Shown piece by piece: positions 9,522-60,790 of a stretch of DNA of 64,000 bases (position 1 is its first letter; every line of letters begins with the position of its first letter). The stretch is taken from contig NC_002689.2 of the NCBI RefSeq assembly GCF_000011185.1, forward strand, positions 62,001 to 126,000. Reading direction: 5' to 3'. Source of the stretch: Thermoplasma volcanium GSS1. Its GTDB lineage: Archaea > Thermoplasmatota > Thermoplasmata > Thermoplasmatales > Thermoplasmataceae. The translations under genes were made by a program, and so were the position numbers. The notes below the pieces were generated by a model that saw only the letters and a program-made list of their open reading frames with translations, was not told the origin of the DNA and made no database searches.

Positions 9522-10555
9522 TGGAAAACGCAACAATACTTTCTGAAGGGGTGTTTGCAACTACTTACGGCAAGACTGCAAACGGTCTTGTCAGATACAG
9601 CAAGAGGTATCACATAACTTCTGTGATAGACTCAAGACTCGCTGGCCAGGATGCCGGTCAGGTGCTGATGCACAAGCCAAGCGGCATACCGATAATATCT
9701 AGTGTGGAAGAGGCCATTAATGGGCACGCAGAAACACTGATTGTCGGTATAGCCTCAGACGGGGGTGTCCTTCCTGAGAATTATAGACCTTACATACGCA
9801 CAGCACTTGGATATGGAATGAACATAGTTAGCGGCCTTCACGACTTCGTCAGCGATGATCCGGAGTTTGTAAAGATAGCAAGGAGAACCGGATCCAGGAT
9901 AACAGATGTAAGAAAGCTGTTCAAGGACAAAAAGTACTTCTTTACCGGGAACATAGAAAAGGTTAAGGCTAAGAAGATAGCGGTACTTGGTACAGATAGT
10001 GCAATAGGAAAGCGTACTACAGCCATTTATCTTAATAGAGCAATGAAAGCCATAGGGAAGAAGAGCGTCATGATAGGTACAGGTCAAACATCCTGGATGC
10101 AGGGCTTCAAGTACACTGTCGTAGTAGATGCGATAGTAAACGACTTTGTTGCAGGCGCTTTAGAGACAATAACCTACGAAGCCTGGGATTCTGAGAGGCC
10201 TGACTACATGTTCATAGAGGGTCAGGGCTCGGTACTGCATCCTGCATATCCTGGCAGCTTTGAGATCATAGGTGCCACTAGGCCAGATGCCATAATACTG
10301 CAGCATGCTCCTATGAGGAAGTACTTCGATGGCTTCCCGGGATACGAGATACCTCCATTAGAGAAGTATATAAAGATACTAGAGCTGCTGTCGAACAGAA
10401 AGGTCATAGCAATAGCCCTAAACACTGAGAATATGGACGAATCCATGGTCAAAGAGGAAAAGTCAAGGCTACAGGCTAAGTTTGGAATACCAGTGTTCGA
10501 TCCGCTGCAGAGGTTATCTACTGTTACTAGGGAAATAGACAGTTATAACATCTGA
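9521..10555 (+). CDS. DUF1611-family P-loop protein (DgcN-like)
   Basis: The 344-residue protein has two parts. Residues 1 to about 145 form a Rossmann-like domain with TLIVGIASDGGVLPENYR. The rest is a P-loop NTPase-like domain with VLGTDSAIGKRTTAIYLNRA, where GTDSAIGKRT is the Walker-A-like loop, and FIEGQGSVLHPAYPG as the conserved family block. Bacterial DUF1611 members (DgcN) have been linked to D-glutamate metabolism, but the archaeal function is unknown. It is coupled to the PLP enzyme upstream and sits 50 bases before a PP-loop protein. Confidence 0.75.
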   Translation: MENATILSEGVFATTYGKTANGLVRYSKRYHITSVIDSRLAGQDAGQVLMHKPSGIPIISSVEEAINGHAETLIVGIASDGGVLPENYRPYIRTALGYGMNIVSGLHDFVSDDPEFVKIARRTGSRITDVRKLFKDKKYFFTGNIEKVKAKKIAVLGTDSAIGKRTTAIYLNRAMKAIGKKSVMIGTGQTSWMQGFKYTVVVDAIVNDFVAGALETITYEAWDSERPDYMFIEGQGSVLHPAYPGSFEIIGATRPDAIILQHAPMRKYFDGFPGYEIPPLEKYIKILELLSNRKVIAIALNTENMDESMVKEEKSRLQAKFGIPVFDPLQRLSTVTREIDSYNI

Positions 10556-47187: not shown

Positions 47188-48439
47188 TTTCCATACTAAC
47201 TAGTACATCTTAAACTATTCAGAAAAGAGACGATGTTAGCTGGATCGAAATGAAGGCTTCCATACTAACTAGTACATCTTAAACTCTTACAAATGTGGAC
47301 ACTAGGGGGATAGCTTTATCCACTTCCATACTAACTAGTACATCTTAAACTCCTTTAATTCAGATCTTTTATAAAGCGGGACTTCGTCAATACTTCCATA
47401 CTAACTAGTACATCTTAAACGCTACATCACTGATGTCGATATATTCCGTGCCAAGTCGACTTCCATACTAACTAGTACATCTTAAACCGACCGCCGTGGA
47501 CGGATTTTCGACAACTACGTTCTGGCTTCCATACTAACTAGTACATCTTAAACCTCATCGTTCAAGTGGACGGTGAGAGATATGTCTACTTCCATACTAA
47601 CTAGTACATCTTAAACGAATAAAAGACTTTGATCAAGACAAGGTTCACTTCTATCGACTTCTTCCATACTAACTAGTACATCTTAAACTCTACGTCCTCT
47701 ATCCCGACGACAACAACGAATATTATGCTTCTTCCATACTAACTAGTACATCTTAAACTGGGATTATATCCTGGAGGAAAAAATGGAGACGAAAACTTCC
47801 ATACTAACTAGTACATCTTAAACAAGAAGTTTATGATAGCTACGATGCATCACGGGTTTTACTTCCATACTAACTAGTACATCTTAAACTCCAAGGATGA
47901 GGCAAGATCACGAAGATCGTCTTTTACTTCCATACTAACTAGTACATCTTAAACCTAGCGCTGAATACGAGCAAAATATGGAAATTCAAGGCTTCCATAC
48001 TAACTAGTACATCTTAAACTGATAGGGAAGAGAGACCTCGAATATTGGATCGATAACCTCTTCCATACTAACTAGTACATCTTAAACTCAAGGCTTTAAA
48101 GCAAAAGGTTTTTAGGTGCTGGAAGATAGAGCACTTCCATACTAACTAGTACATCTTAAACGATATTTCATGATAGCGATCAGCTAACGTTTGTGAATGT
48201 TCTTCCATACTAACTAGTACATCTTAAACAGAAGACGTTCCGGAGGAATACATAAGGGGCATTTTCGACTTCCATACTAACTAGTACATCTTAAACGGTG
48301 TCAGCGTGTCGTTGTCATGCATCTCAATCAGCCTTACGCTTCCATACTAACTAGTACATCTTAAACAAGGTGAGAGAAAATGTGTTTCACACCAGTTGGA
48401 TTTGTAAGATACTTCCATACTAACTAGTACATCTTAAAC
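47188..48439 (-). CRISPR. CRISPR array 1 (19 repeats, 18 spacers)
   Basis: A 28-base repeat (plus-strand form starts CTTCCATACTAAC and ends GTACATCTTAAAC) occurs 19 times. Spacers are 35-46 bases and all differ. The first copy (47188) has T for C at its first base. The right flank matches the right flank of array 2, so the leader is on the right and transcription runs leftward; the crRNA-sense repeat then starts GTTTAAGATG. It lies directly downstream of cas2. Confidence 0.98.
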
Positions 48440-49879: not shown

Positions 49880-50614
49880 TTATTCTAGATAACTCAATAT
49901 TATATCCCCCAACTCCGTTCTATATATTCTTGAATTATCATATGTAATAAAGCCCGAGTCTTTATACGATTTTAATTTATAATCGGCTAAATCAGAGTAT
50001 TCTCTGCTACTTGATGTTAATGCTGCTTTTATATTGTTTATTTCATCTTTAGGCAATTTAACAACGGGAACTTTTAGAAAATATAAATCATTCATATCTG
50101 GATAAAAAACATGGTCAAGTAAATCCTTATACTCTTTGTACTTATCTTTATAATTTTCATCGTCAAATTCTGATATTTTGTCTTTTATTTTTTCATATTC
50201 CTCATTATAACTAGTTACACTTTTATTTATGATATTATACACTTCATCAAATGAGAATATAGACGCATATACTGATAATATTATTGTTTCAATTTTTCTG
50301 CCGCCAGATGCATTTACTATAATCTTTTCTGTTCCAAATTGATATTTTTCTTTTTTCACTGTCTCTGATATTACTTTTATGAATTTTATCATGTCATTAT
50401 CTGACCTTATGTCATCAAAATCAAGTTTTTGCAAGTGCACATGGGCATGGAATTTATCTTCTAATGATGCTTTTGCCGCTAAAGTACCGGCCTTAACGTA
50501 TTTATTATCTGTATAAATCAAAATAACGTCGGATATCTCATCTTTTAAATACTCATACATTTCAGTAGCCACCATAGGCGAAGTACCCATTGGATTTATT
50601 AATAATGTTTTCAA
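49880..50614 (-). CDS. CARF-domain protein (ring-nuclease or regulator candidate)
   Basis: The 244-residue protein begins MKTLLINPMGTSPMVATEMY and has the second CARF motif VNASGGRKIETIILS (Lys107), the two loops that contact cyclic oligoadenylate. The middle is a Lys/Glu-rich helical region. The last 55 residues (SDLADYKLKSYKDSGFITYD onward) look like a small winged helix. No HEPN RxxxxH or PD-(D/E)xK motif is visible. It could be a ring nuclease that ends the signal or a transcription factor of the Csa3/Csx type. It is embedded in the operon between csm5 and cas1. Confidence 0.75.
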   Translation of the reverse strand: MKTLLINPMGTSPMVATEMYEYLKDEISDVILIYTDNKYVKAGTLAAKASLEDKFHAHVHLQKLDFDDIRSDNDMIKFIKVISETVKKEKYQFGTEKIIVNASGGRKIETIILSVYASIFSFDEVYNIINKSVTSYNEEYEKIKDKISEFDDENYKDKYKEYKDLLDHVFYPDMNDLYFLKVPVVKLPKDEINNIKAALTSSSREYSDLADYKLKSYKDSGFITYDNSRIYRTELGDIILSYLE

Positions 50615-57104: not shown

Positions 57105-58325
57105 ATGAAATCTATTTTTATTTCATTATGGGGAAATCCTGAAAGATGGAACGTAACTAGGTACTCTTTTAACTCAAAAACATGTGAAAGTATAACAAGT
57201 TCAAGGGTAATATATGAAAATTTTAAAACGGATTATTGTATAATATACATACCAAATTCGATATATCCCGGCATATACAAAGATGATACATATTTATCCC
57301 AATATCAAGATCTTATTAATAGTAAACTATGTGAATTTCTAAACAGCAAAGATACTGAAAGTGCTGAATTTTATAAGAATAGCAATAAAATAATATTTCC
57401 ATCGAAGGGATCCTTTACAGCAGATAATAAGAACTATATATTTGATTTTGATATAAATTATATTTACTCATATTTTTATAGAAGCATTTTAAACTATTTA
57501 GAATCTGTTGATAAAATAAATAAGATAATAGTAGATATAACACATGGGATTAATTTTCTTGAATTTATATTTCTTGAATCATTAATGTATGCTTTACGTG
57601 TATATGCATTATCAAATAAAATAGATGTAAATATTGAATATTATAATTCTGATCCATATAGTAATTTTGCTATATTGAATATTTATAAAATTAAAAGCAT
57701 TGAAATAGAATATAAGAACGTTTTATCTATAATATCCAGAGATTTTATCAATATGTACAGGCACAATAAAAAAGATATTAAAGATTATTTTAAATTAAAC
57801 TTCAATGAAGATTTATCGGACTATATTAAAGCATGCTCAATCATGGCACAATCTGTAACAGTACCGTATCTTATGTATTTGATAATAAACATATACAAAA
57901 AAATATATGAAATCGGTAGTGGTGGATTAGAAGTTCATTTAAACATAGAGGATAATAAAATAAGGCAGACGTTTGACAATAAGATCAATGTCAATATTGA
58001 AACTCTTGCATTTTTGGATACATTAATAAAAATTAACTCATCCATAAAATACGATAATGGTTTTAAAATACCTGACATATACACATTTACGGATAATTTC
58101 TTTTCCAGAGAATCATATAATATTTTTATAAAAAATGAGTTAAGAAAAATTAAAAGTAAAAAAGAGCATTATGATTTTGATATAGGAAATTTTTCAAGAA
58201 ATTTTAAAGCATATGCAGGTTTGCTAGATGGATTATATGTTCTTAAAGATAACTCCATAGATTTTAAAACGTTCCATTTTCAAAATCAGAAGATAGATCT
58301 AAATTGGATAGTTAAAAATATTTAA
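57105..58325 (+). CDS. csx1: Csx1 (CARF-HEPN protein of the MJ1666 type), catalytic His replaced
   Basis: The 406-residue protein opens with FISLWGNPERWNVTRYSF and has the CARF motif VDITHGINFLEFIFLESLMY (about residues 144-163), both typical of Csx1. The C-terminal HEPN domain carries the expected block as NFSRNFKAYAGLLDG: Arg365 is kept, but the position of the catalytic His is Tyr370. Csx1 normally degrades RNA when it binds cyclic oligoadenylate from Cas10. This copy may be altered or inactive as an RNase. It diverges from the cas operon. Base composition is as AT-rich as the rest of the locus. Confidence 0.88.
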   Translation: MKSIFISLWGNPERWNVTRYSFNSKTCESITSSRVIYENFKTDYCIIYIPNSIYPGIYKDDTYLSQYQDLINSKLCEFLNSKDTESAEFYKNSNKIIFPSKGSFTADNKNYIFDFDINYIYSYFYRSILNYLESVDKINKIIVDITHGINFLEFIFLESLMYALRVYALSNKIDVNIEYYNSDPYSNFAILNIYKIKSIEIEYKNVLSIISRDFINMYRHNKKDIKDYFKLNFNEDLSDYIKACSIMAQSVTVPYLMYLIINIYKKIYEIGSGGLEVHLNIEDNKIRQTFDNKINVNIETLAFLDTLIKINSSIKYDNGFKIPDIYTFTDNFFSRESYNIFIKNELRKIKSKKEHYDFDIGNFSRNFKAYAGLLDGLYVLKDNSIDFKTFHFQNQKIDLNWIVKNI

Positions 58326-59469
58326 TCTTGAACTATTTATAATAACTAAAACCTTTAAAGGAATTTCTATATGGCAATTTAATAATTTTTCACTAATTTG
58401 TACTCAGTTTTATTATTTGTATGTAATATTGGATGTATAAAGATGATATAGCATATCTTATCCCTTTCTTAAAGATTTTCAATGTCTAAATTAAAAAAAA
58501 AATTCAATCGAATATTTTGAGATATTTTCAAACTAACTAGTGCCACTAAAGACTGGCCATGCTTATTGTATCGATTCTTTCCATGCCTCTTCTTCATGTT
58601 ACGTAATTACGAGTTCTAAAAAGATAACATAGGCATGGTAACATTTCTTAACAGATCTGCTATTATAGCCATTTTCCTGAATGGAAACATAAGGAAACAC
58701 CAAAAGTCAACATATTGCCCCATATTGTCCCATGCACATGTCCCATTTACTCCGAACACACCAGCAGAACCCAAATTATACTCAATTTTAGGTGTTGCAA
58801 TTTGTGTTGCAACGGTTGCAACATTATTGCGACATAGTTGCAACATGACCACCATGCGAATGTTGCAACTTGTCAGGAAACCCTTTATTATACGCATTTT
58901 TTTGTGTTGCAATAAATGAGACGTTTATTGCAACATGATTGCAACAAGTTGCAACATAGTGTTGCATATTCATTTTATCCCGTATTATTCCAATTCCATA
59001 TTTTAATTTTCATCTCCTAATTTTATTCGGTTGCAACATGATCGGTTGCAACAGTTGCAACGTGATCACCATGCAGATGTCCACTTGTCAAGAAACCCTC
59101 TATTATACGCAATTTCTTATGTTGCAATTGGTGTTGCATCATGTTGCAACATGTCACCATGAAAAAGCCAGCGTTCGTTAGAAGACCCTCTATTTTAGGC
59201 ATTTTCCGATGTTGCAACTGGTGTTGCAACGGTTGCAACATAGTGTTGCATATTCATTTTATCCCGTATTATCCTAATTCCATATTTTAATTTTCATATC
59301 CATATTTTATTTTATTGCAACATGATCGGTTGCAACATGTTGCAATCGGCCTTAATTCATGATACCGATCATGGGGATTTTTGATCCCATTTCCCCGATA
59401 ATGACCTTGCAGTTTTTCTAAAATTTTTATTCTATACAGTCCGTGATTCATGGTTGTCATGACAATTTT
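58326..59469. repeat. GTTGCAAC-rich repeat region, no convincing gene
   Basis: Between csx1 and array 2, 1,144 bases hold no frame with a recognisable product. From 58794 to 59346 the palindrome GTTGCAAC occurs 13 times exactly (58806, 58815, 58837, 58862, 58948, 59030, 59045, 59054, 59143, 59211, 59223, 59232, 59329), with several one-mismatch copies. A 66-base segment (58948-59013) recurs at 59232-59297 with two differences. On the minus strand a motif like KKxRIIEGFLTS recurs three times, so part may be a decayed repeat-coding gene. At 58525-58552 lies a degenerate CRISPR repeat. Confidence 0.8.
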
Positions 59470-60616
59470 CTTCCACACCAATTAGTACGTCTCAAACGTT
59501 ATTTGTATAATAAAGGCGTAATTGTCGGAGCTATTGCTTCCATACTAGCTAGTACATCTTAAACTGGACAATCTGCCGAAAGCAGCAAAGACTGTGAGTA
59601 CAATAAGCTTCCATACTAACTAGTACATCTTAAACGAAAAAAATCCTATTCGGCTATTTTCACTCAAATTTATATCTTCCATACTAACTAGTACATCTTA
59701 AACGACTCACGCAATGGAGATGCGGATAGTATACTTTTAAACGCTCTTCCATACTAACTAGTACATCTTAAACGCAGAGGCATATCCAAAAAAAGGCAAG
59801 GTGTAATTAGACCCTTCCATACTAACTAGTACATCTTAAACAAGGTTTTTTATTACTCGCTCTTCAGGAGCGCATGGCAGGGCCTTCCATACTAACTAGT
59901 ACATCTTAAACCAGGTACGCACAAAAAAGGAGAGCAGAATATGCAGCGGATGACTTCCATACTAACTAGTACATCTTAAACGATGTCCAATAGAGTAGAA
60001 AAAGGTGTTAGGGAGGCCCTCAGCTCTTCCATACTAACTAGTACATCTTAAACTAGAAAATACTGTTCATTGATTGCAGACCAATTGAAAGACTCTTCTT
60101 CCATACTAACTAGTACATCTTAAACAAGGGAGCAAGAGCTCTGCCTATTAAAGCTGATAAATCACATCTTCCATACTAACTAGTACATCTTAAACCAGGT
60201 TCTATGTATCTCCATTGTGATTGGCATGCAAATTCTTATTCTTCCATACTAACTAGTACATCTTAAACAACAAGGTGTATGTTCTCAATTCGGCAGCACT
60301 GCCGAATGTACTTCCATACTAACTAGTACATCTTAAACGGATATTACATGGGAAAAGAGAACATACAGAAAATACACTTCCATACTAACTAGTACATCTT
60401 AAACACGAGTATGCTACGAAATTGATTTCAGAAGTATTCGAGGACTACCTTCCATACTAACTAGTACATCTTAAACTTAGGTATATCATATTAAGGTGAA
60501 AAAATGGATAAAAAAGAACTTCCATACTAACTAGTACATCTTAAACAAGAGACTGTTAGAAAGCGGATTTATATCGGCTGTGGGGCATCTTCCATACTAA
60601 CTAGTACATCTTAAAC
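59470..60616 (-). CRISPR. CRISPR array 2 (17 repeats, 16 spacers)
   Basis: It has the same 28-base repeat as array 1, with spacers of 38-45 bases. Repeats decay leftward: the second copy (59537) has one change and the first (59470) has five. This shows that the left end is the old, leader-distal end. The leader begins at 60617. No spacer is shared with array 1. Confidence 0.98.
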
Positions 60617-60790
60617 CCGTATCAATAATTATAATAAACATAGTTATTTAAAGGTTCTCCTTAAAAAATTGTAAAAAGATCCAAAGAGAGGAAAATTTTG
60701 ATAATAAACCTCTAAAATACTAATCCCACATTAAATCTTGCGGGGATCGATTTTTTGCCCTTAGTATTTAAAGATCAATTTATATTTAGA
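60617..60790 (-). promoter_or_regulatory. Leader of CRISPR array 2
   Basis: About 172 bases are nearly identical to the leader of array 1, with scattered single differences. Divergence sets in after about 60789. Both arrays should thus be served by the same Cas1-Cas2 and transcribed alike. Confidence 0.85.

Follow-up and report, generated by a model that had tools for sequence, protein, structure and literature searches.

The window analysed here, a 64,000-nucleotide stretch of the Thermoplasma volcanium GSS1 genome, contains a type III-A CRISPR-Cas locus that runs from array 1 (47188–48439) through cas2, cas1, a Csx14/Csa3-like CARF gene, RAMP genes, csm2, cas10, cas6 and csx1 to a non-coding palindrome block and array 2. 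Features in and around the block are given below (window positions; the octamer is GTTGCAAC).

49880–50614, minus strand: CARF protein, Csx14/Csa3-like, candidate CRISPR regulator (Csa3_N, E=2e-4; TIGR03642, E=5e-50)
57105–58325, plus strand: csx1 (CARF; TIGR01897, E=2e-98), convergent with array 2, with the block between them
58525–58552, plus strand: left decayed CRISPR repeat, matching 19/28 positions of the array consensus; the stretch homologous to the 907-kb and Acidiplasma aeolicum copies begins within it, at 58537 (border of three pairwise alignments)
58537–59469, unstranded: whole non-coding palindrome block, homologous as a unit to an A. aeolicum VT contig (90–94%) and, shortened, to 907.2–907.8 kb of the same genome
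58661–58676, plus strand: anchor 1, TATTATAGCCATTTTC, followed by GGAAACA sites rather than GTTGCAAC
58806–59336, unstranded: 13 exact GTTGCAAC and near-copies such as GTTGCAAT, ATTGCAAC and GTTGCATC
58886–58901, plus strand: anchor 2, TATTATACGCATTTTT
58948–59053, plus strand: 106-nt duplicated unit, copy 1
59101–59116, plus strand: anchor 3, TATTATACGCAATTTC
59191–59206, plus strand: anchor 4, TATTTTAGGCATTTTC
59232–59337, plus strand: 106-nt duplicated unit, copy 2 (92%, offset 284)
59410–59469, plus strand: array-side border segment, common to the block copies and to an orphan repeat at 1097.6 kb
59454–59465: 12-bp palindrome TTGTCATGACAA inside the border segment
59470–59497, plus strand: terminal repeat of array 2, decayed (23/28), which flanks the block on the right
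59537–60616, minus strand (crRNA sense): array 2, 16 repeats fitting the consensus (Rfam CRISPR-DR44)
60617–60772, minus strand: leader of array 2, common to array 1 and to an orphan leader and repeat at 700.7 kb

The leader common to both arrays lies to the right of each, and the block is therefore found at the opposite, older end of array 2, away from the leader; this refines its earlier placement simply beside that array. Compared with solved structures, the Csx14/Csa3-like protein gave one marginal match. A truncated Orc1/Cdc6-like gene (700476–700673, partial match to TIGR02928) has at its end an orphan CRISPR repeat (27/28) together with 155 nt of leader (700668–700850; L018:1669–1851), where a leader-repeat unit has apparently moved into a gene.

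All exact copies of GTTGCAAC within the window, 13 in number, fall in a stretch of 531 bp (58806–59336). Dinucleotide shuffles of the whole window held a mean of 0.59 copies and never more than 3, which bears out the preliminary description of a non-random cluster; its pairs of octamers 9 bases apart were likewise recovered (58806/58815, 59045/59054 and 59223/59232). Genome-wide (1,584,804 bp, one contig) the octamer occurred 37 times, comprising the 13 of the window cluster, 6 at 907476–907679, which is the sole further cluster, and 18 scattered singles. The octamer pattern read backwards occurred 20 times in all. Palindromes of 8–12 bp exceeded dinucleotide shuffles in both the window and the A. 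aeolicum copies of the block; for the 8-bp class alone the counts were 20 (5.3 in shuffles) and 27 (5.8 in shuffles), respectively.

The cluster is part of a block of ∼930 bp built of imperfect tandem units, each consisting of an anchor (TATTATACGCATTTTC) and then one to three palindromes 9–12 bp apart. When 12 units from the three homologous copies were aligned, the anchor read TATT(A/T)TA(C/G)GCATTTTC and was followed by GTTGCAAC sites, with GGAAAC-type sites in their place in the first unit. Neighbouring sites are mostly 9–12 bp apart (this range covers more than half of the spacings in the A. aeolicum copy), and octamers are also present outside strict unit copies at varied spacings; helical phasing over all site pairs was not significant. 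Anchors follow one another in the window block at irregular distances (225, 215 and 90 bp) and, at ≤2 mismatches, have 13 matches genome-wide, about half of them in the two clusters and the others scattered singly. An internal duplication at an offset of 284 bases, described previously as a 66-base unit, was confirmed in its offset and corrected in its length, which is 106 nt at 92% identity.

The borders of the block were examined with an ungapped scan of 223,122 positions scored against the 28-nt array consensus. At the left edge of the block, the window matched at 19/28 (58525) and each of the other two copies at 21/28; outside the arrays, only the known orphan repeats (four in the scan) ranked above the 21/28 matches, and at all block copies the edge matches had the orientation of the arrays. 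The window's left repeat is weak alone, its 19/28 being equalled by one chance site in the scan, and is convincing because its position falls at the homology break (58537) in three copies. This left break, in the window against both other copies, lies inside CRISPR-repeat-like sequence, and the right break against A. aeolicum lies inside the right-hand repeat, after CTTCCACA. The block therefore takes the place of a spacer, though an oversized one, between two decayed CRISPR repeats of the same orientation. It is not itself a CRISPR array: its anchors are divergent and irregularly spaced, and only its flanks are repeat-like. No spacer of arrays 1 or 2 convincingly matched the block or the other loci read, and GTTGCAAC was absent from every cas promoter and CRISPR leader of this genome. 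Two further orphan CRISPR repeats (26/28 and 25/28), in the same orientation, were observed at 1095547 and 1097627 (L017:7548–7575 and 9628–9655), with an apparent ammonium transporter gene and a transposase relic in the roughly 2 kb between them. The second carries the block's border segment, lies 2 kb from an Orc1/Cdc6-like gene, and is about 0.3 kb from what is left of a CRISPR repeat of a different type, TAAAATAGAACCTTAATAGGAATGAAAC (L017:9927–9955).

A sister copy of the block occurs in the same genome at 907.2–907.8 kb, missing about 340 internal bases, retaining 6 octamers and likewise bounded by decayed CRISPR repeats. It adjoins an integrase remnant within an island of 30% GC rich in glycosyltransferase genes and IS elements. 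The copy on Acidiplasma aeolicum VT contig NZ_LKBG01000288.1 has 21 octamers, is 90–94% identical to the window and lies ∼1.1 kb from a cas1 relic (TIGR00287, E=8e-21); over several kb, largely beyond the limits of the block, this contig also matches the 907-kb island at 86–93% identity. The flanking decayed repeats, the 907-kb sister and the close copy in another genus were all invisible to the preliminary description. Octamers thus number 13, 6 and 21 in the window, 907-kb and A. aeolicum copies, and 12 of the 13 in the window are kept in A. aeolicum, which is consistent with octamer loss on the Thermoplasma side. The octamers are conserved weakly better than their surroundings (1/104 versus 36/833 differences), a margin so slight that binding may never have mattered, or not recently. 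Contamination of the assembly is in principle a conceivable source of the A. aeolicum contig, whose GC content (33%) fits either way. In a low-GC surface-polysaccharide island of this genome, identity with an A. aeolicum VT contig was also seen to reach 93%, and genes are broken on either side (L016:4991–9842 and L117:47–4864); the likeness would reflect either recent transfer between genera or a contaminant contig.

Elsewhere the block is nearly absent. No other match by sequence was found in 60 relatives (four congeners and 56 others), and the anchor-plus-octamer combination was found in the genome collection only in A. aeolicum VT and as single unrelated matches. Among 400 genomes of the class the 17-bp dyad GTTGCAACNGTTGCAAC was confined to these two genomes and a single occurrence in a genome of the same order and another family (G047); about 0.1 chance occurrences in the 400 genomes were estimated from base composition. 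In G047 the dyad stands 145 nt ahead of the first repeat of a 23-repeat CRISPR array, directly upstream of a TATA-like TTTATAAA, and GTTGCAACTGTTGCAAC lies within that CRISPR leader (L128:16540–16707). This leader position, noticed post hoc, is suggestive. The trailer of array 2 in one congener (G002) holds a different stretch of imperfect tandem and inverted repeats (L143:12900–13290), with 37-nt units and inverted repeats such as CAATAGGCTATAT/ATATAGCCTATTG; it was set aside, with a palindrome count not above shuffles and no convincing sequence in common with the block. Four further trailers (L130, L134, L144 and L145), inspected by eye, held nothing alike.

Plasmid and phage collections gave no match to the block with distant blastn, and the viral contigs contained no anchor-plus-octamer unit, no octamer-plus-CACCATG unit and no CRISPR repeat. 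In the viral contigs that carry the dyad it occurred 85 times, 21 of them outside called ORFs, and around those 21 TTGCAA was about twelve times over-represented (0.86 versus 0.07), an excess carried by a few loci. Two unrelated viral contigs, L100 and L082, have intergenic dyad clusters that adjoin, respectively, an AAA_25 replicative-helicase-type gene and a VapE-like (primase-helicase) gene. Another viral contig, L041 (238–3623), packs 17 GTTGCAAC into 4.1 kb; most form pairs spaced by 9 bp close to small genes, and they may be the repeated operator of a virus or plasmid. No replication or partition gene adjoined any copy of the block, and the Orc1-like protein compared with plasmids had, among the matches listed, distant haloarchaeal matches only.

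The block is real and odd, and it is probably a relic. We put at about 0.5 the probability that it is an iteron- or operator-like palindrome array of mobile-element origin, amplified in tandem, lodged in the CRISPR locus and now decaying in Thermoplasma. Most likely, a mobile element brought in a non-coding array of protein-binding-type palindromes, whose dyads a dimeric protein would have bound. Local tandem duplication by unequal crossing-over would have grown it in units of about 90 bp, each an anchor with dyads of the form GTTGCAAC-(1 or 4 nt)-GTTGCAAC, and the 284-bp duplication would have enlarged it further. Recombination at CRISPR-repeat sequences probably placed the palindrome array between two decayed repeats where array 2 is oldest, farthest from its leader, and the fall to 13 octamers from the 21 of A. 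aeolicum would mark its present decay in Thermoplasma. Points in favour are the clustering, the variable copy number of the units, the homology breaks in repeat-like sequence, the cross-genus copy at 90–94% against none in four congeners, and the foreign-type island at 907 kb. Against them stand the missing plasmid or phage record of the block, the lack of a viral anchor-plus-octamer unit or of an adjoining replication or partition gene, and the absence of phasing. Binding sites or iterons were among the explanations offered originally and still fit best, given dyads 9–12 bp apart in tandem-duplicated units and similar viral clusters beside helicase-type genes; protein binding itself we infer. 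A mobile-element array is favoured because the viral intergenic dyad clusters of L100 and L082 adjoin replication-type genes.

The strongest rival, clearly less probable and yet to be taken seriously, is plain satellite DNA, i.e. a short tandem repeat that happens to hold a palindrome and was expanded by slippage and unequal crossing-over, unbound and functionless. Such a history would suit the varying copy number among homologous copies, the octamer decay in the window copy (13 versus 21) and a position between convergent csx1 and array 2 on which no gene depends. It does not readily explain why palindromes of 8–12 bp exceed shuffles in two copies, why the octamer recurs beyond strict unit copies at varied spacings, or why the same dyad clusters intergenically in unrelated mobile DNA. 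We regard as unlikely that the palindromes are operators for a CARF-winged-helix (Csa3/Csx14-like) or similar CRISPR-Cas regulator, comparable to the Sulfolobales palindromes. The copies do lie at the type III-A array 2, at a 907-kb locus with decayed repeats and on a contig with a cas1 relic; a Csx14/Csa3-like CARF gene belongs to the locus; and G047, the sole other genome of the 400 with the dyad, has it in a CRISPR leader. However, no cas promoter or leader of this genome has an octamer, the known Csa3a site (TCCCN8GGGA; PMC8699464) is a different sequence, and the block stands at the trailer end, with G047 as a single, post hoc leader case. A bolder extension, which we offer as a long shot, would make the GTTGCAAC dyads a CRISPR-linked cis-acting platform in Thermoplasmata, where a dedicated protein at array ends or leaders would control spacer uptake, array transcription or array recombination; this would explain why copies are exchanged horizontally and recur in three genera at CRISPR loci both active and defunct.

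Readings that invoke an encoded product or a chromosomal function fared worse than the mobile-element array. A transcribed structured RNA, or a terminator or insulator between convergent csx1 and array 2, is improbable: two window stretches folded better than shuffles (z −2.8 and −3.6), but this excess follows from the self-complementary octamers alone, and an A. aeolicum stretch folded no better than shuffles (z −0.7). Hairpin arms vary without compensation, keeping 6 to 8 of 8 pairs with no pair-restoring double changes, and only CRISPR-DR44, the CRISPR repeats, scored above the Rfam gathering score; a structured RNA was rejected for want of compensatory changes in the stems. A decayed repeat-protein gene had been suggested from a peptide repeated three times on the minus strand. 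Similar peptides are indeed readable there (KKMRIIKGFLTS, KKLRIIEGFLTS and RKMPKIEGLLTN), but they only mirror the DNA anchor and its repetition. The anchors are spread over two frames, the repeat period is not kept in one reading frame, homologous copies (90–96% identical) differ by frame-breaking 1- and 2-base indels, and the ORF tested had no Pfam match, leaving a gene remnant very hard to credit. Least credible of all is a chromosomal replication origin or terminus signal, the other form that the binding-site proposal could take. The two clusters are 786.7 kb apart, almost opposite on the 1585-kb circle, but the Orc1/Cdc6 genes, at 772 (main), 1100 and 1558 kb, have no octamer cluster near them, the block is missing from the four congeners searched, as an origin would not be, and the low-GC island that contains the 907-kb copy is foreign.

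Palindrome arrays, decayed CRISPR repeats and horizontal transfer are each familiar; what is unusual is their combination. A palindrome array bounded by decayed CRISPR repeats at two places in one genome and in another genus would exemplify how foreign, repeat-rich DNA can settle at an array's oldest end, and would show that pieces of arrays pass from locus to locus and from species to species. A protein that binds the dyad, if there is one, would be a DNA-binding factor as yet uncharacterised, with ties to mobile DNA or to the CRISPR loci of Thermoplasmata; if there is none, the block would illustrate that clustered palindromes can mislead.

Among known systems, the CAPPa/Csa3a promoter palindromes of the Sulfolobales resemble the block as palindromes at archaeal CRISPR loci, a likeness extended by the single G047 case in a leader upstream of a TATA-like box. 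The Csa3a site is TCCCN8GGGA (PMC8699464), whereas the block is built on GTTGCAAC, and a reading as Csa3a operators was rejected on that difference; the block also has many copies rather than one per promoter, and lies at the trailer rather than in a leader or cas promoter of this genome, the leader location being found in G047 only. Among plasmids of the Thermoplasmatales, pPO1 has a repeat-rich, oriC-like intergenic region with tandem repeats near an Orc1/Cdc6 ORF (PMC3177234); pTA1 likewise has such a region. The block shares with pPO1 the character of AT-rich, repeat-containing intergenic DNA, but the tandem repeats published for pPO1 are other sequences. From the iteron and multi-operator arrays of plasmid and phage replication regions the block differs in its irregular unit lengths, its chromosomal position at decayed CRISPR loci and its lack of an adjoining cognate initiator gene (Rep or Orc1/Cdc6), with cas genes and csx1 around it and Orc1/Cdc6 hundreds of kb away. 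It resembles them in its many short dyads, putative binding sites repeated in non-coding DNA, which are about one helical turn apart, tandem-amplified and variable in number, and analogues of its dyad adjoin replicative helicase genes in the viral contigs L100 and L082.
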